The notes under the pieces: model-generated
Database searches by the model: none
Told to the model about the DNA's origin: nothing
The model's input: only the letters and a program-made list of their open reading frames with translations
Position numbers and translations under genes: made by a program
Shown: in pieces, positions 36,171 to 62,979 of the stretch
Layout of the letters: each line of letters starts with the position of its first letter
Position numbering within the stretch: the stretch's first letter is position 1
Assembly: GCA_016198585.1 (NCBI GenBank)
Contig: JACQII010000013.1
Location: 1-64,000 of the forward strand
Reading direction: 5' to 3'
DNA: 64,000 nucleotides
Origin: Candidatus Aenigmatarchaeota archaeon
GTDB lineage: Archaea > Aenigmatarchaeota > Aenigmatarchaeia > QMZP01

Positions 36171-36929
36171 ATGGACCGCCTCGAAACCCTCGCCCGTGAC
36201 CTCCTCCCCGACCAGTATCTGCCGCCGTTCCTCTACGCCTTCGCGGGCGGGAAGCTCATCCGGCCACGGATCCTCCGGCTGGTCTGCGACCGCCTCGGGC
36301 AGGATCCCGTCCCCCTGGAAAAGGCCGCGCTCGCGATCGAGGTCCTCCACTGTGCGACGCTGCTGCACGACGACGTGGTCGACGGCGACGGCAGCCGCCG
36401 CGGGAAGCCGACCTTCCACGCCCGCTTCTCCCCGAAGCAGGCCATCCTCTCCGGGGATTACTTCGCGCTCACCGCACTCGACCTGGTCCAGCGCCACTAC
36501 CCGACGCTCACGACTGCCTTCCTGGCAGCTGTCCGGGACGTGGCCGTGGGCCAGCTGATGGAGTTCGCCCCGCTGCCCGACCTCCGGAGCTACCTGGACT
36601 ACGCGGACAAGAAGACGGCCTCGCTGTTCGCCCTCGCCGCGGCCGTCCCCTGCGCGGTCTTCCAAACCGATCTGGGCTGGATCGCCTGGGCGCGCGACCT
36701 GGGAGTCGCCTTCCAGATGGCGAACGACCTGCAGGGCAGTCCGAGGGAATCCCATTCGGTCCTGGCCGTCCTCTCGCGGAGCGAGGCCGAGCGCGACTTG
36801 GCCGCGCGGCGAGCGCAGCTGCAGCAGAAGGTGGAGAACAACGATCAGGAGTTTATAGCGGACATCCTGACGCCGCGGCCAGACTCTCAAGGGACTGCCG
36901 GCCGACCAGCCGCTGGCCGTCCTTCGTGA
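36171..36929 (+). CDS. Short polyprenyl diphosphate synthase-like protein
   Basis: The 252-residue protein has the first Asp-rich motif DDVVD (67-71) of trans-prenyltransferases with surrounding sequence (AIEVLHCATLLHDDVVDGDGSRRGKP), but the second is NDLQG (185-189) instead of DDxxD. It is about 70 residues shorter than usual. It may be a non-catalytic or altered-chain-length subunit. The SD ggtgaggagg precedes the ATG, 8 bp after the UbiA stop, so the pair forms an operon for quinone or lipid side chains. Its 3' end overlaps the convergent thioredoxin gene by 77 bp. Confidence 0.75.
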   Translation: MDRLETLARDLLPDQYLPPFLYAFAGGKLIRPRILRLVCDRLGQDPVPLEKAALAIEVLHCATLLHDDVVDGDGSRRGKPTFHARFSPKQAILSGDYFALTALDLVQRHYPTLTTAFLAAVRDVAVGQLMEFAPLPDLRSYLDYADKKTASLFALAAAVPCAVFQTDLGWIAWARDLGVAFQMANDLQGSPRESHSVLAVLSRSEAERDLAARRAQLQQKVENNDQEFIADILTPRPDSQGTAGRPAAGRPS

Positions 36930-37386
36930 TCCAGGTCGGGTAGCCGGTGATCCCTTTCTCGTCGCAGAGCGCGGGCTGGGCCTTTCCTTCCGGGTCTCCG
37001 GCAGCGCACTCCACGTAGTTCACCAGCCGGAACGAGTTCCCGAAGTCGAGCTTCTGGCGCGCGCAGTTCGGACACCAGTACGCCCCGTACTCGACCATTC
37101 CCTGGTCGGTCAGGCACTGGGCGAACGCATCATACTGGCCGGGCTGCTGGGTCATGTAGCCGGTGTAGGAGGAGACGCCGAACGCTGCGGCAGCGAGAAC
37201 CACGACGACCACGATGACCCACCCCGCGGTCTTGAGCCGCTTCCTGGTCCGGGCGGACCGCTCCTGCCCCTGGGACTGTGTCTCCCGCATCTCCCGTTCG
37301 AGGCGGCGCCGTTCCTTCCGCGACAGGCCAGGTCCGTCCTGCGGAGGCGTGGTCGGTTGGGGTGCATCCTGCGGAGATTCATCCAT
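36853..37386 (-). CDS. Membrane-anchored thioredoxin-like protein (CPNC)
   Basis: A basic cytoplasmic N-terminus (KERRRLEREMRE), one membrane helix (residues 55-72), and a thioredoxin-like domain with YGAYWCPNCARQK (C105, C108) and the GYPTW cis-Pro segment. This type of domain is usually fused to VKOR. Here VKOR is encoded 120 bp away on the other strand. It may be oxidised by VKOR or reduced by CcdA. A TATA box lies near 37408-37417. Confidence 0.85.
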   Translation of the reverse strand: MDESPQDAPQPTTPPQDGPGLSRKERRRLEREMRETQSQGQERSARTRKRLKTAGWVIVVVVVLAAAAFGVSSYTGYMTQQPGQYDAFAQCLTDQGMVEYGAYWCPNCARQKLDFGNSFRLVNYVECAAGDPEGKAQPALCDEKGITGYPTWITKDGQRLVGRQSLESLAAASGCPL

Positions 37387-37504
37387 ACCTCTTCCCTGGC
37401 AGCCGGGCTTTTAAACCTGCCGGTCTCCGCAGGGAAATCGGGCTGGACTGCTATCCTTCCGGAAATCCCCGGGTTTATATGGCGGCGCAACGAAAGAGAA
37501 TGGC

Positions 37505-37978
37505 ATGGGGACCAGGGAGCGCCGGAACCTGAAGATCATCGCCATCATCTCGGTGGTGAACATCCTGATCGCCGGCTACCTGCTCTACACCAAGTATTCA
37601 GGCGCCAAGAGCTTCTGCGACTTCTCTCCGGAGATCTCGTGCGACGCGGTGAGCCAGTCCCCCTACGCTGAGCTCCCGGCCAACTCCGGGATCCCGGTCG
37701 CGGGCCTCGGCGTCATCGCCTTCCTCCTCTTCCTCATCCCGACCCTTGCCCTCCTGCGCCAGTCCGGAGGCTTCCTCTTCAGCCGGCCGGTCGTCCACCG
37801 GCTCTTGCTCGTCTGGGGGATCTTCAGCCTGCTCTTCTACGTCTACCTCACCTACCTGGAGCTCTACGTGATCTACGCCCTCTGCCCGCTCTGCATCGTC
37901 ACCTTCGCCCTGACCATCGTCCTCCTCCCGTTCCTCGCGGACAACGTCCGCCTCGTCAAGAAGAAGGAGGCCTCATGA
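37505..37978 (+). CDS. VKOR-family membrane protein
   Basis: The 157-residue, four-helix protein has the VKOR cysteines: C38 and C46 in the loop (SFCDFSPEISCDAV) and the CPLC active site (C127, C130) facing quinone. It oxidises DsbA or thioredoxin partners and passes electrons to quinone, replacing DsbB. A TATA-like tract (gtttatatgg) lies about 28 bp upstream. It overlaps a thioredoxin-like lipoprotein gene (ATGA), its likely partner. Confidence 0.93.
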   Translation: MGTRERRNLKIIAIISVVNILIAGYLLYTKYSGAKSFCDFSPEISCDAVSQSPYAELPANSGIPVAGLGVIAFLLFLIPTLALLRQSGGFLFSRPVVHRLLLVWGIFSLLFYVYLTYLELYVIYALCPLCIVTFALTIVLLPFLADNVRLVKKKEAS

Positions 37979-38373
37979 ACCAACTCCCCGCACTCCTGGT
38001 CCTCGTCGGCGTCCTGGCCATCAGCGGCTGCACCGCTCCCGCGGCAGTGGACTATTCCGCCTTCAGCACCTGCGTCAAGGATGCAGGCGTGGTGGAATAT
38101 GGCGCCTATTGGTGTCCGAACTGCGCGCGGGTCAAGCTGACCCTCGGCGACGCCTGGAAGAACCTGGCCTACGTCGAATGCGACCCCAAGTGCGTGGCCA
38201 ACGCCCAGGGCGCCCTGCCCGACTTCTGCAACGGTTTCACCAGCCAGACCGACCAGTGCCTGCAGCTCGGTGTCGACAAGTACCCGAGCTGGGAGAAGGA
38301 CGGGCAGATCCTCTACGTCGGGACTGACCTGGCCAGGGTCGCGGAGATCAGCGGCTGCGCGCTGCCTGAGTAG
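37975..38373 (+). CDS. Thioredoxin-like lipoprotein (CPNC)
   Basis: A lipoprotein signal with lipobox ISGC (C19) is followed by a thioredoxin-like domain with YGAYWCPNCARVK (C47, C50), several other cysteines (C33, CDPKC, DFC, QC) and the cis-Pro region DKYPSW. The gene overlaps VKOR and lies 3 bp before a CcdA-like gene, so it may sit between oxidising and reducing membrane partners. Confidence 0.88.
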   Translation: MNQLPALLVLVGVLAISGCTAPAAVDYSAFSTCVKDAGVVEYGAYWCPNCARVKLTLGDAWKNLAYVECDPKCVANAQGALPDFCNGFTSQTDQCLQLGVDKYPSWEKDGQILYVGTDLARVAEISGCALPE

Positions 38374-58258: not shown

Positions 58259-58657
58259 ATGGACGTCTACCTCTGCGGCAACCCGCTCCTGCCTGAGGAT
58301 GCGCTGCCGTTGCGGCTGCTGCCCCGCCTCCGGCGCGCCTTTCCCGCGCTGCGGTTCCGAGAGCTGGACCCGACCGAGGACGTGCCCGAAGGCGTGCCAC
58401 TCCTGGTCGTGGACACGGTCCAGGGCATCGCGGCGGTCACGGTCTTCCGCGACCTGGACGCGTTCCTGCAGGAGCGGCGCGTCTCCCTGCACGACGCCGA
58501 CCTCGGCTTCACCCTGCGGCTGATGCAGAAGGCGGGCAGGCTCGGGCCGGTCACGATCGTGGGTGTCCCGCAGGGCGCGCCTGACGGTGAGGCCTTCGCC
58601 CAACTGCGCGCCTCCCTCGCCGCCCTCAGCGGCCAGGATCGACCCACTTCACCTTGA
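58259..58657 (+). CDS. [NiFe] hydrogenase maturation protease
   Basis: The 132-residue protein matches the HycI/HybD endopeptidase family: GNPLLPEDALPLRL (E13/D14), VVDTVQG (D52) and RVSLHDADLG (H78), the three nickel-sensing positions. It trims the C-terminal tail of the hydrogenase large subunit after Ni insertion. It is convergent with that gene and overlaps its 3' end by 32 bp. Confidence 0.85.
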   Translation: MDVYLCGNPLLPEDALPLRLLPRLRRAFPALRFRELDPTEDVPEGVPLLVVDTVQGIAAVTVFRDLDAFLQERRVSLHDADLGFTLRLMQKAGRLGPVTIVGVPQGAPDGEAFAQLRASLAALSGQDRPTSP

Positions 58658-59927
58658 GGAAGTGGCTCGCGCAGCTCATGCACGGGTCGTAGGCTCGGAT
58701 GAGTTTCTCGATCTCCCGTTCGATGGCGGGTTTGTCCATCGTCTCCAGGGCGTTCTGGACGAGGTGGGCGATGTCCTTCTCGATCGATATCTGGTTCTGC
58801 GCCGTCGGCACGACGATGTTGGCCTTCTTGATGGTCCCGTTCTTGCCGACGGTCAGGCGGTAGTAGAGCGTCCCGCGTGGCGCCTCGATGACCCCGACCC
58901 CGGTCTGTTCCTTCGTGAGCACGGGCCGCTGGACCGGTTCCGGGTGGAACGCAGTCGTCTCGAGCAGCTCGACGGCGTGGTCGATCGCATGCAGGACCTC
59001 GATGGCCTGCGCGACGTTGTTGTGGAAGATGTTCTGCGACGGGAACAGCTTCAGCGCCTCCGCTGCATCCCGGCGGGTCGACGGGTGCAGGTTCTCGCGG
59101 TTCAGGTTCAGGCGCGCGAGCGCGCCGACCACGAACTCCTGGCCCTCGAACTCGAAGCCGGCGGCTTGCGAGTAGGGGAGCGCGACGTTGATCAGGTGGT
59201 CAAGGTAGGCCTCCTCCGGGATGCACACGCCCTTGCTGGTGATGACCTCGCCGTCCAGGAAGCTGAAGTCCGGCGTGGCGAGGGCCACGTACTCGGTTTC
59301 GCGGGAGAACCGCTGGTCCCAGTCCGCGAAGGTCTGGATCAGGTCTAGCGCCAGCGGCCGGACGCGCTTCAGCTCCGCGACCACCTTGGCGACCGCGGCG
59401 GGGTCAGGCACGTGCAGGAAGCCGCCGACCGTCGGGTACGGGGCGTGGACAGCCTTCCCGGCGACGAGGGTCGAGAGCATGTTTCCTGCCCGCTTGAGGT
59501 CGAAGGAGTCGTGCAGCAGTTTGTGCTCGCGGGGGTCGCTCTCGCTGAAGTCGAGGATCGAGTCCTTCCCGACCAGGTCAGGCAGGGCGAAGAAGTACAG
59601 GTGGAGGGCGTGGTCTCGGATCATGAGGCCGTACATCGTCAGCTTCTTCAGGAGTTGGACCTGGGGCGTGGGCTGGATGCCGGTCGCGTGCTCCAGGGCC
59701 TCGATGCAGCAAAGCAGGTGGGCGATGGAGCAGGTCCCGCAGATGCGCGACATCAGCTGCGGCGCCGAGGTGAGCGGCTGCCCGCGCACGGCCTGCTCGT
59801 AGAACCGTTGGTTCTCGGTGATCGCGAACTTGACGCCCTCGACCACGCCCTCGCGCACGCGGACCTCCAAGTCGGCGTGACCCTCCATCTTGGTCAGATT
59901 CTCCAGGGTGATGTCGAAGCTGTGCAT
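58626..59927 (-). CDS. [NiFe] hydrogenase large (catalytic) subunit, group 3-like
   Basis: The 433-residue protein has both Ni-ligand motifs: RICGTCSIAH (C63, C66) and DPCMSCASH (C416, C419, H422). An 11-residue tail after H422 (FLKVKWVDPGR) should be cut off by the maturation protease encoded convergently. The sequence is closest to cytoplasmic bidirectional group 3 hydrogenases. The start at 59927 is 6 bp after the stop of the thioredoxin-reductase/small-subunit fusion gene. Confidence 0.93.
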   Translation of the reverse strand: MHSFDITLENLTKMEGHADLEVRVREGVVEGVKFAITENQRFYEQAVRGQPLTSAPQLMSRICGTCSIAHLLCCIEALEHATGIQPTPQVQLLKKLTMYGLMIRDHALHLYFFALPDLVGKDSILDFSESDPREHKLLHDSFDLKRAGNMLSTLVAGKAVHAPYPTVGGFLHVPDPAAVAKVVAELKRVRPLALDLIQTFADWDQRFSRETEYVALATPDFSFLDGEVITSKGVCIPEEAYLDHLINVALPYSQAAGFEFEGQEFVVGALARLNLNRENLHPSTRRDAAEALKLFPSQNIFHNNVAQAIEVLHAIDHAVELLETTAFHPEPVQRPVLTKEQTGVGVIEAPRGTLYYRLTVGKNGTIKKANIVVPTAQNQISIEKDIAHLVQNALETMDKPAIEREIEKLIRAYDPCMSCASHFLKVKWVDPGR

Positions 59928-59932
59928 GGGAA

Positions 59933-61384
59933 TCAGAGCTGCACGCCCGCCTCCACGAGGTGCTTCTTCAGGACGGCCAGGAACCCCGCCTCGGTCATGG
60001 GACAACCCGGCACCTGGTCATCCACCGGCACCACCTCGTGGACCGGCTGGACTTTCTTGCTGTAGTCGAAGGCCCGCAGGATGGGCATGATCTCGCGGGT
60101 CCGCGGCTCGTCGAACTGGTTGCGCTGGGCCGAGGGCATCCCGGTTACGGCGCACGCCCCCACCGCGATGAGCGTCCGGGCGTTCTTGCGGATCTCCCGG
60201 ACCTCCTGGGCCGCGCGTTCACTGGCGATCGCCCCTTCCACGAAGGCGATGTCCAGGTTGGTCGGGTCGTTCACGCTCCGGAGCGCCCGCGCGTACGGGA
60301 TCTCGACCACGCGTTTCCACTCGTCCCAGTGGTCGTTCAGGAGCTCGGTGAAGACGATCGTGCTGTCCTCGCAGCAGCTGAAGGAGAACCAGCCCACGCG
60401 GATCTTCCGCTGCGGTGCCGTTGCCGCAGGCGGGGCGGCCGGCGCGGCGTGCGCCCCCTTCGCGTAGTCCAGGTAGAGGTCGCGCGCCCGCAGGTACTTG
60501 ATGACGTTCACCGCGGCGTTGCAGCCGTCGCCCACGTTCTTCGCGACCTGCCTGCAGCGGCCCGCGCAGTTCCCGGCGGCGAAGACCCCCTCCATACTGG
60601 TCATGCTGTTCTCGTCCACGACGAGGATCTTGTCTCGCAGCTGCAGCCCGAGGTTCGCGGCGAAGTCCAGCGCGCCCGCCGCGCCGCAGGCCATGAAGAC
60701 ACCCGCGACCGGCAGCAGTTCGCCGTCCGCCATCCGCGCGCCAGTGAACCACTTCTCGCCCTCGAAGGCGGCGACCGCGCCGGCACGGATCTTGATGCCC
60801 CGTTTCACGACCTCCTGCTGGTAGGCCTCCGAGAAGGCGAACGCGGGCGCGTTCGCGACGATCGTGATGTCCTTGGTGTACGACAGGGCCTCGATCGCGT
60901 CTTCCGCGGCGTGGTTCCCGTTGCCGATGATCGCGATGGGCTTGTTCGTGTAGAAGGGCCCGTCGCACGAGACGCAGTAGTGGACGCCTTTCCCCACCAG
61001 CCGCTCCTCGTTGGCGATGCCTGAGGCCCGGATCGGGACGCCGGTGGCGATGATCAGGGCCAGCGCGTGCACGGCGGCGCCAGTGCTGGTCTTGACCACG
61101 AACGCGTGCTTCCCGTTCTCCTCGACGGCCGTCGCGGTGACGGCCTCGCCCTTCAGGAAACTGGCGCCGAACTTGCGGGCCTGTGTCGTGCCCTTCGCAA
61201 GCAGGTCCGGGCCGTCCACCCCTTCCGGGAAGCCGAAGTAGTTCTCGATGTGCATGGCCAGCGACGCCTGGCTCTTCTCCGGCAGCCCGAGGACCACGGT
61301 CTTGAGATTGGCCCGTGCGGTGAAGATCGCCGCCGACAGGCCTGCCGGCCCACATCCCAGGATCGCCACTTCAGCCTCGTCCAT
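59933..61384 (-). CDS. Thioredoxin-reductase-like domain fused to a [NiFe] hydrogenase small subunit
   Basis: Residues 1-308 are a thioredoxin-reductase-type flavoprotein: FAD motif GCGPAG (10-15), redox pair CVSC (C137, C140), nucleotide motif GNGNHA (154-159) and FAD segment GVFAAGN (266-272). It lacks the HRRxxFR NADPH-phosphate motif. A Pro/Ala linker (308-326) leads to a hydrogenase small subunit (327-483) with C337, C338, C411 and C461 as cluster ligands. C273, C277 and C288 are extra. It should pass electrons between H2 at the large subunit and FAD/disulfide/NAD(P). Its start lies 1 bp past the stop of the EamA gene. Confidence 0.9.
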   Translation of the reverse strand: MDEAEVAILGCGPAGLSAAIFTARANLKTVVLGLPEKSQASLAMHIENYFGFPEGVDGPDLLAKGTTQARKFGASFLKGEAVTATAVEENGKHAFVVKTSTGAAVHALALIIATGVPIRASGIANEERLVGKGVHYCVSCDGPFYTNKPIAIIGNGNHAAEDAIEALSYTKDITIVANAPAFAFSEAYQQEVVKRGIKIRAGAVAAFEGEKWFTGARMADGELLPVAGVFMACGAAGALDFAANLGLQLRDKILVVDENSMTSMEGVFAAGNCAGRCRQVAKNVGDGCNAAVNVIKYLRARDLYLDYAKGAHAAPAAPPAATAPQRKIRVGWFSFSCCEDSTIVFTELLNDHWDEWKRVVEIPYARALRSVNDPTNLDIAFVEGAIASERAAQEVREIRKNARTLIAVGACAVTGMPSAQRNQFDEPRTREIMPILRAFDYSKKVQPVHEVVPVDDQVPGCPMTEAGFLAVLKKHLVEAGVQL

Positions 61385-61385
61385 G

Positions 61386-62342
61386 TCACACCCCCCGCTG
61401 CTCGCTCGGGAGCGTCGCCATGAGGTAGCCGCCGACCAGGATCACCGCCGAGCCCGCCGCCTGCAGGGCCGGAACCGGCTCGCCGAAGGCGGCCATCCCC
61501 AGCGCCAGCGAGACCACGGGCGCCAGCAGCAGGAGCGCCGCGGCCTTCGACACGTTGATCAGGGAGAGCGCCCAGTAGTAGAGCCCGACGTACGCCAGCA
61601 GCAGCCCGGTCGAGACGCCGATGTTCATCCACTGTGCCGGCGCCAGCGCAAGCAGCGCGCCCGCCTTGCCCGTCAGCACCACCACTCCGAGGAGGATGAG
61701 GCCGCCGTAGAGCATCCTGGCCACCTGCACCACCAAGGCGTGCGCGCCACGGCTGAGGACGCCCTTCGCGGCGACGTTCTCCACGGCCCAGAGGACCGTG
61801 GCCGCCAGCACCAGGGCGTCACCCAGCTGCGGGTCGGTCCAGAACGCGCCGGGGGCGATGGTGGCGAACGAGATGGCAGCGATGCCCAGGAAAAGCAGGA
61901 GCATGCCGGCGAAGTAGCGCCGGCCCAGGCGCTCCTTCAGGACCGCGAACCCGAGGACGGCGACGAAGAGCGGGAGCGTCTTGTGCAGGAACGCCGCCCG
62001 GCCGGCAGTGGTGAACTGGAGCCCGCTGAAGAAGAGCAGGAACGCGGCCGCGCCGCCGACCACGGCCACCAGGAGCAGCGGCTTCCACGAGCCGGGAGGC
62101 GCCCGGACGCCCTTCCATCGCGAGATCGTCAGGAACACGACGCCGATGAGCAGGGCCCGCACTGCGGTGAAGACTGCGGGATCGAGCGAGACCACGAAGA
62201 GCTTGTTGGCCGGGATCGCGACGCCGCTCACGACCGCCGCGAGGATGGCGAGGACCGTCCCGAGGGCTTCCTTCCGCGGGAGCCGCCGAGCCGGGGTTGC
62301 CGATGCGTCCCGTGGCCCGCGACCAGCCTGGGCCGGCCTCAT
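61386..62342 (-). CDS. EamA/DMT-family transporter
   Basis: The 318-residue protein has ten transmembrane helices in two EamA halves (AIPANKLFVVSLDPAVFTAVRALLIGVVFL and LLAYVGLYYWALSLINVSKAAALLLLAPV). The family exports or imports small metabolites. It lies inside the hydrogenase operon, overlapping the HypC-domain gene (ATGA) and ending 1 bp before the fusion gene, so a link with hydrogenase is possible. The substrate is unknown. Confidence 0.85.
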   Translation of the reverse strand: MRPAQAGRGPRDASATPARRLPRKEALGTVLAILAAVVSGVAIPANKLFVVSLDPAVFTAVRALLIGVVFLTISRWKGVRAPPGSWKPLLLVAVVGGAAAFLLFFSGLQFTTAGRAAFLHKTLPLFVAVLGFAVLKERLGRRYFAGMLLLFLGIAAISFATIAPGAFWTDPQLGDALVLAATVLWAVENVAAKGVLSRGAHALVVQVARMLYGGLILLGVVVLTGKAGALLALAPAQWMNIGVSTGLLLAYVGLYYWALSLINVSKAAALLLLAPVVSLALGMAAFGEPVPALQAAGSAVILVGGYLMATLPSEQRGV

Positions 62343-62812
62343 GCGTCCTCCACGACAAAATCCCAGTGCGTCACCACGCGCATGCCCGGCCTCGCTTGGG
62401 GGAAGAGGTCGGTCCGCATCTCCCGGACGCGGCCGTCGATGCGCACCCGTGCGACCTGCTCCCGGACGGCCTCCACGGTCCCGACCCGCACGCGGCAGGC
62501 CTCGGGATCGAAGTCGCCCATCTCTGCGGAGCGCCGCGCGATCACCGCGTCGTGCCCCTCGCGGAAGTAGCAGCGGATGACGGCGGCGTCGACGGCCTGC
62601 TTACCCTGGTCGATCGCCCGCAGCGAGCAGGCCGCGCGCGCCACGACGAAGAGATCTTCCGCTCCTTCAGGGGCCTCGCCGGCGCCGACGGCGGCGACGA
62701 GCCGGTCGACCTCGCCCTGGCTCACCCGTCCGCGGCCGACCAGGGTTCCGGCGCACGGCAGCGCGTAGCGCAGGAAGAGCGCGCGGTCGGCGACGGGCAG
62801 GAAGCGGGTCAC
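62339..62812 (-). CDS. Hydrogenase accessory protein with HypC-like C-terminal domain
   Basis: The 157-residue protein starts with GTG, overlapping the hypC stop (GTGA). Its N-terminal half is helical (FLRYALPCAGTLVGRGRV, VARAACSLRAIDQGKQAVDAAVIRCYF). Its C-terminal 50 residues (CRVRVGTVEAVREQVARVRIDGRVREMRTDLF...GMRVVTHWDFVVE) follow the beta-barrel pattern of HypC. It is probably an accessory factor for cofactor insertion, but the family is not well described. Confidence 0.7.
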   Translation of the reverse strand: MTRFLPVADRALFLRYALPCAGTLVGRGRVSQGEVDRLVAAVGAGEAPEGAEDLFVVARAACSLRAIDQGKQAVDAAVIRCYFREGHDAVIARRSAEMGDFDPEACRVRVGTVEAVREQVARVRIDGRVREMRTDLFPQARPGMRVVTHWDFVVEDA

Positions 62813-62979
62813 GCCTGCGCCTCCGCCTTCTCGATGGCCATGCCTGCAGCGCAGTAGACGTAGTCGCCGGCGCGGACGGGCACCAGGTCGATGCGTACCT
62901 CCTGCACCTCGCCGGCGATCTCTACGCGGGCGAGCTTCCCAGAAACCTGCAGGACCTTGCCGAGTGCCGTCACGCACAT
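62809..62979 (-). CDS. hypC: Hydrogenase maturation chaperone HypC
   Basis: The 56-residue protein begins MCVTALGKVLQV, with the Met-Cys2 start required in HypC for carrying the Fe(CN)2CO group, and continues with the usual barrel (KLARVEIAGEVQEVRIDLVPVRAGDYVYCAAGMAIEKA). The ATG at 62979 is chosen because of Cys2 and because a TATA box (cttattaatcc, 63001-63011) lies about 28 bp away. It is the first gene of the hydrogenase operon. HypA, B, D, E and F are not in this window. Confidence 0.88.
   Translation of the reverse strand: MCVTALGKVLQVSGKLARVEIAGEVQEVRIDLVPVRAGDYVYCAAGMAIEKAEAQA

Follow-up and report, generated by a model that had tools for sequence, protein, structure and literature searches.

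According to our analysis, the minus strand of the window, by which we mean the whole 64,000-nucleotide stretch of DNA analysed, carries between positions 61384 and 59933 an unbroken frame of 483 residues in which a thioredoxin reductase (TrxR) is joined by a Pro/Ala linker to a short [NiFe]-hydrogenase small subunit, as the first-pass annotation had proposed. Pfam and NCBIfam profiles assigned residues 5 to 298 to thioredoxin reductase (TIGR01292, E 6e-61; PF07992) and residues 347 to 473 to Oxidored_q6 (E 5e-20), while the nearest small-subunit model, that of the group 3b delta subunit, matched residues 325 to 478. The TrxR domain thus occupies residues 1 to 310 (60455 to 61384), the Pro/Ala-rich linker residues 311 to 324 (60413 to 60454), and the small-subunit domain residues 325 to 483 (59936 to 60412). 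The ATG of the large-subunit gene stands at 59927, 5 bp past the stop of the fusion rather than the 6 bp first reported, and this gene reads on the minus strand to 58626, encoding 433 residues. Convergent with it on the plus strand lies a gene for a hydrogenase maturation protease (58259 to 58657), which is HycI-like by its homologue in genome G008. Two further minus-strand genes conserved in the cluster encode an EamA/DMT transporter (61386 to 62342) and a HypC-domain/DUF6390-like protein (62339 to 62851, start approximate). In two DPANN phyla the transporter gene is a conserved member of the hydrogenase cluster, with further copies at L027:1698-2630 and L144:5220-6134.

The host is a Candidatus Aenigmatarchaeota archaeon (DPANN) with an assembly of 941,554 bp (0.94 Mb) in 16 contigs, 76% complete; its named relatives are groundwater Candidatus Aenigmatarchaeota, and a PF00374 search of this genome found the partner of the fusion as its sole hydrogenase. 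The small-subunit profile matched 45 of the 156 genomes of the phylum, and in five of these (G000, G012, G085, G090, and G091, from families f1 and f20) the domain is fused behind a TrxR. The same domain order, which the first-pass annotation had suggested searching for, is therefore present in four other metagenome-assembled genomes (MAGs) and spans two families, and one fused copy lies on a 125-kb contig of a genome that is 93% complete. Gene order is kept among the fused genomes (HypC/DUF6390-like protein, EamA transporter, fusion, large subunit, convergent protease). Between the window and its closest relative, G012, dN/dS comes to 0.20 in the TrxR and 0.15 in the small subunit, with 0.26 in the short linker, and both halves of the fusion are under purifying selection in this pair. 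Occurrence in five genomes of two families, the conserved gene order and a dN/dS of 0.19 rule out chance or an assembly artefact or chimera. A sixth genome, G008, holds the same parts unfused in one operon, all in one direction, in the order small subunit, thioredoxin-like protein, large subunit and TRi-like TrxR, the last two genes overlapping by 8 bp. No TrxR fusion was found among 380 CPR and 295 Micrarchaeota genomes, and no fusion frame of TrxR length occurs in the 24 CPR and approximately 53 Micrarchaeota genomes with a short-type hydrogenase; long frames in G572 and G717 turned out not to be TrxR fusions. A different fusion was observed in the CPR genome G343 (L127:407-2209), where small and large hydrogenase subunits form one 600-residue frame with a HypC gene nearby. 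In the open-access literature, we found no report of a hydrogenase-TrxR fusion or of an H2-disulfide link.

The flavoprotein half had been described at first as a full thioredoxin reductase. Its fold, its FAD motif GCGPAG (GxGxxG), and its redox-active CxxC pair, CVSC (C137 and C140; 60965 to 60976), agree with that description and with the TrxR superfamily, but the NAD(P)H site is degenerate, and the GGGxxA and HRRxxxR motifs of low-Mr NADPH-dependent TrxRs are lacking. GNGNHAAE (residues 154 to 161; 60902 to 60925) replaces GGGxxA(E), and ANAPAFAFSEA (residues 177 to 187; 60824 to 60856) replaces HRRxxFRA, the NADPH 2'-phosphate motif. All five fused proteins and G008 lack both motifs, the sequences at this site in the other four fused proteins being alike with small changes, and on these grounds an NADPH-linked TrxR is rejected. 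By comparison, an ordinary TrxR of the window genome, at contig position 78092, reads GGGDSAMEE and HRREEFRA. The other fused genomes, too, each encode at least one further TrxR that scores in the range of ordinary enzymes, which makes the fused copy look like a specialized second enzyme. The CVxC pair is kept in all fused proteins and their TRi-like relatives, as CVNC in G091.

The closest solved relative of the TrxR half is 5nii, the TRi of Desulfovibrio vulgaris (E 3e-54, against 6e-38 for the next), which was again the top match in a structure search. The tree unites the five fused domains in one clade (100/100), which is joined by G008 and G116 (98/94) and then, more tentatively, by TRi (86/66). 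Among the 156 Aenigmatarchaeota genomes, TRi-like scores are 566 to 586 bits for the fused proteins, 497 for G008, 343 for G116, and at most 254 for all others. The clearly TRi-like enzymes, those above 300 bits, are thus nearly confined to genomes with a hydrogenase of this type (six of seven), which speaks for a coupling; the seventh, in G116, counts against a coupling of the two. Genes for SUF iron-sulfur assembly lie near this lone TRi-like TrxR of G116 (L126:7421-8338). Every fused protein has the three cysteines C11, C233, and C277, and none of the 21 other TrxRs in the comparison has them; going by TrxR folds, they should presumably lie near the FAD. A model of the fusion chain alone, which reached a pLDDT of 58 with 5 alignment rows, rose with 53 rows to a mean pLDDT of 83 and a pTM of 0.53, at which most of both domains is confident, residues 255 to 283 and the linker are poor, and the relative placement of the two domains is undefined.

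The large subunit is full length and carries the NiFe ligand motifs RxCGxC and DPCxxC (as RICGTC and DPCMSC). Across eight diverged large subunits, no variation occurs in the four NiFe Cys ligands, in the Arg of EAPRG, or in the Asp-His of RDHA. Although group 3b-like, and set beside group 3b enzymes in the first-pass annotation, the large subunit falls with the short-type enzymes of Aenigmatarchaeota, Micrarchaeota, and CPR in a clade that a long branch separates (100/100, in a tree without outgroup) from Pyrococcus furiosus sulfhydrogenase I (SHI) and 12 ordinary group 3b rows. The closest curated large-subunit models, ShyA/HydA, scored far under their cut-off (234 of 700 bits). The gamma Fe-S domain PF10418 is missing from all seven genomes of this type that were searched and present beside the ordinary group 3b hydrogenases of three out of three genomes, which agrees with the initial claim that the gamma subunit is absent; with the separate clade, it rules out a plain group 3b identity. 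In the neighbourhood of the operon, no adjoining HydB (beta) gene was seen.

The small-subunit domain, of 159 residues, stops at HydD residue 156, where the medial/distal cluster part begins, and is predicted by profile and alignment to hold the proximal cluster only; a HydD-type small subunit of about 260 residues, with clusters beyond the proximal one, is absent here. Its first ligand motif is CCEDS (residues 337 to 341; 60362 to 60376) or CSEDS, against SC-xGC or CC-EGC in ordinary group 3b enzymes. Since the second Cys of the motif is replaced by Ser, the proximal cluster is unusual, a point against the H2-driven reading given below. The remaining two ligand sites, GxCA and GCP (C411 and C461), are kept. 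We take the tandem Cys of CCEDS to resemble those at the N2 cluster of complex I; an earlier reading of the motif as a CxxC-to-CxxD change was dropped after a wider alignment. The motif is strikingly variable within the short-type clade, and some small subunits (L029:9266-9802, L072:3722-4198, and L073:7402-7875) have TGDEGC, with the first cluster Cys lost. As for the large subunits, those of the five fused enzymes and of G081, which has no attached TrxR, form one clade (100/100). Since G081 is nested among the fused enzymes, one gain and one loss make the simplest history, and since G081 and most short-type hydrogenases do without a TrxR, the pairing is not obligatory.

Taken together, we lean towards the view that the two polypeptides constitute a thioredoxin (disulfide) reductase that is driven by a hydrogenase and independent of NAD(P)H. 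The FAD and the CVxC pair are kept and the usual donor site is lost, so another source of electrons is needed, and the fused cluster supplies one. We infer that the NiFe site of the large subunit would split H2, that the single small-subunit cluster would relay the electrons one by one to the FAD of the tethered TRi-like domain, and that the reduced FAD would deliver them to CVSC, from which dithiol electrons would go to thioredoxin or a glutaredoxin-like carrier; the H2 activity, the cluster-to-FAD step, thioredoxin as the acceptor, and the direction of flow are all parts of this inference. From standard potentials, H2 above roughly 10 nM drives thioredoxin reduction. The initial view of a compact two-polypeptide enzyme, with a disulfide flavoprotein in the place of the diaphorase, is supported by the conserved fusions and by the unfused operon of G008. 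More tentatively, and short of regarding it as probable, we propose a single-complex, H2-dependent, pyridine-nucleotide-free TrxR that would provide the first genetically linked donor of a TRi-type enzyme and would have its NiFe site assembled without HypDEF.

The maturation genes bear on whether H2 is activated at all. HypD was missing from all seven genomes of this type that were searched (the five with the fusion, G008, and G081), incomplete MAGs some of which reach 90 to 95% completeness. Another 21 DPANN/CPR genomes, with hydrogenases of the ordinary or the short type, lack it in 20 cases; G152 gave the one HypD match, which shows that the search works. In the searched genomes of this type, HypE gave no match above the cut-off and is probably missing as well, and HypF gave only fragments of related families, so that these genomes have no known route to the Fe(CN)2CO group; the lack of HypF, and of HypE matches above the cut-off, extends to DPANN and CPR genomes with ordinary group 3b-like enzymes. 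Chiefly for this reason, the H2 activity should not be taken as given. Without HypD, HypE, and HypF, the site might hold another metal centre or be partly empty, and electrons would then move between a ferredoxin-like donor and the TrxR; the absence of these factors from searches in which positive controls gave matches, and a ferredoxin gene adjoining the cluster in G085, speak for this explanation. It is nonetheless deemed unlikely, if the most serious of the alternatives, given that the NiFe ligands and the Arg and Asp-His residues named above are invariant in eight diverged proteins, that the cluster retains a HycI-like protease and HypC-like proteins, and that 10 of 11 genomes of the same phylum with an ordinary group 3b enzyme lack HypD too. 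The Hyp deficit is therefore a habit of the lineage that goes beyond the fused enzymes, and maturation may proceed by another route. A HypC-domain protein and the HycI-like protease are also kept in those Hyp-poor genomes that were looked at; either another maturation route exists or these DPANN/CPR enzymes are not classical hydrogenases. On a related point, DUF6390 (PF19927) and HypC-domain proteins of about 170 to 190 residues adjoin these hydrogenases in Aenigmatarchaeota, Micrarchaeota, and CPR (in the window at 62339 to 62851, minus strand, and at L025:6131-6865, L065:6930-7208, and L127:2222-3147), and DUF6390 looks like a hydrogenase-associated, HypC-like family.

Electrons could also run the other way, from dithiols or reduced thioredoxin through CVSC and FAD to H2, making the enzyme an electron sink in fermentation. 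Group 3 hydrogenases generally work in both directions, and fermentation is the lifestyle mostly ascribed to DPANN archaea, but thioredoxin, with a potential near −270 mV, allows H2 formation only below about 10 nM H2, and we consider this direction distinctly improbable. The first-pass annotation had further named NAD(P) as a possible electron partner, which would make the flavoprotein a substitute diaphorase and the enzyme an H2:NAD(P)+ oxidoreductase. In favour of this, ordinary group 3b enzymes work with NAD(P), the TrxR domain belongs to the pyridine-nucleotide-disulfide family, and its changed Rossmann fold might still bind NADH. Against this, neither the five fused proteins nor G008 retain either nucleotide-binding motif, and TRi, the nearest characterized relative, is not reduced by NAD(P)H (PMC5627308), which leaves the diaphorase very improbable; for a TRi-like domain without the two motifs, thioredoxin or another disulfide is a likelier partner than NAD(P). 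Hardly to be expected, finally, is a TrxR domain that repairs or switches the hydrogenase (by reductive reactivation or redox control) and carries no substrate electrons, since, although the three invariant cysteines peculiar to the fused proteins would suit such a role and unfused short-type hydrogenases manage without a TrxR, FAD and CVxC are kept where the donor site is lost and the fused cluster supplies the electrons needed.

The thiol-transfer genes that the first-pass annotation had adduced are a VKOR gene and two genes for membrane-anchored thioredoxin-like proteins with CPNC motifs (36853 to 38373); they lie about 20 kb from the fusion and look extracytoplasmic, probably as machinery for disulfide formation, and lend the proposed H2-driven disulfide reductase no real support. 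A search of the window genome, which is 76% complete, found no small cytosolic thioredoxin; G085 encodes a small glutaredoxin-like protein of 87 residues. The thioredoxin-like protein of the G008 operon has an N-terminal membrane anchor and, as we read its sequence, resembles the proteins beside the VKOR gene of the window; being membrane-anchored, it may not meet a cytosolic reductase and is weak evidence for a cytosolic partner. If the proposal is true, genome-reduced groundwater archaea would supply their disulfide-reducing network straight from H2, without the detour through NAD(P)H. The fusion would then make it testable what reduces TRi-type thioredoxin reductases, the covalent tether offering a ready two-gene construct, and the missing HypD and HypF raise the question of how such DPANN/CPR hydrogenases mature, or whether they are active.

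When compared with known systems, the enzyme appears to be a new combination of two known kinds, with possibly a new activity. With group 3b/sulfhydrogenase I of P. furiosus (9nez and 9e15), the large subunit can be aligned from end to end (E 3e-63), and the small subunit with HydD residues 1 to 156; the window enzyme differs in that the genomes of this type have no gamma domain, and in its missing C-terminal part of HydD, its altered proximal motif, its separate clade, and the TrxR fused to it instead. The short-type hydrogenases of CPR, Micrarchaeota, and Aenigmatarchaeota have the same subunits and protease, many with HypC/DUF6390-like and EamA neighbours, but those of CPR and Micrarchaeota are without the TrxR-length fusion frame that the window enzyme has. 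FFTR, a TrxR that likewise has no NAD(P)H motifs, is a precedent for electron transfer from an iron-sulfur centre to the flavin (PMC12796991, PMC10880999); its donor is free ferredoxin, whereas here a hydrogenase cluster domain is fused, and its sequence match is much weaker than that of TRi (6gnc, E 3e-29; 5n0j, E 2e-22). With the TRi of D. vulgaris, the TrxR half shares the fold, the CVSCDG active site, the loss of the NAD(P)H motifs, and a GxGxxAxx...LxYT stretch. TRi stands alone and has TQGK in place of HRRD, whereas the fused proteins are joined to a hydrogenase small subunit, have three extra invariant cysteines, and show NAPA, NATK, or NADK at that position, outside the TQ/NGK pattern of the TRi family. 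NAD(P)H does not reduce TRi; supplied with electrons artificially, TRi does reduce thioredoxin, and the natural donor had not been identified when the enzyme was described (PMC5627308); in the fused proteins, the hydrogenase domain would be the candidate for that role.
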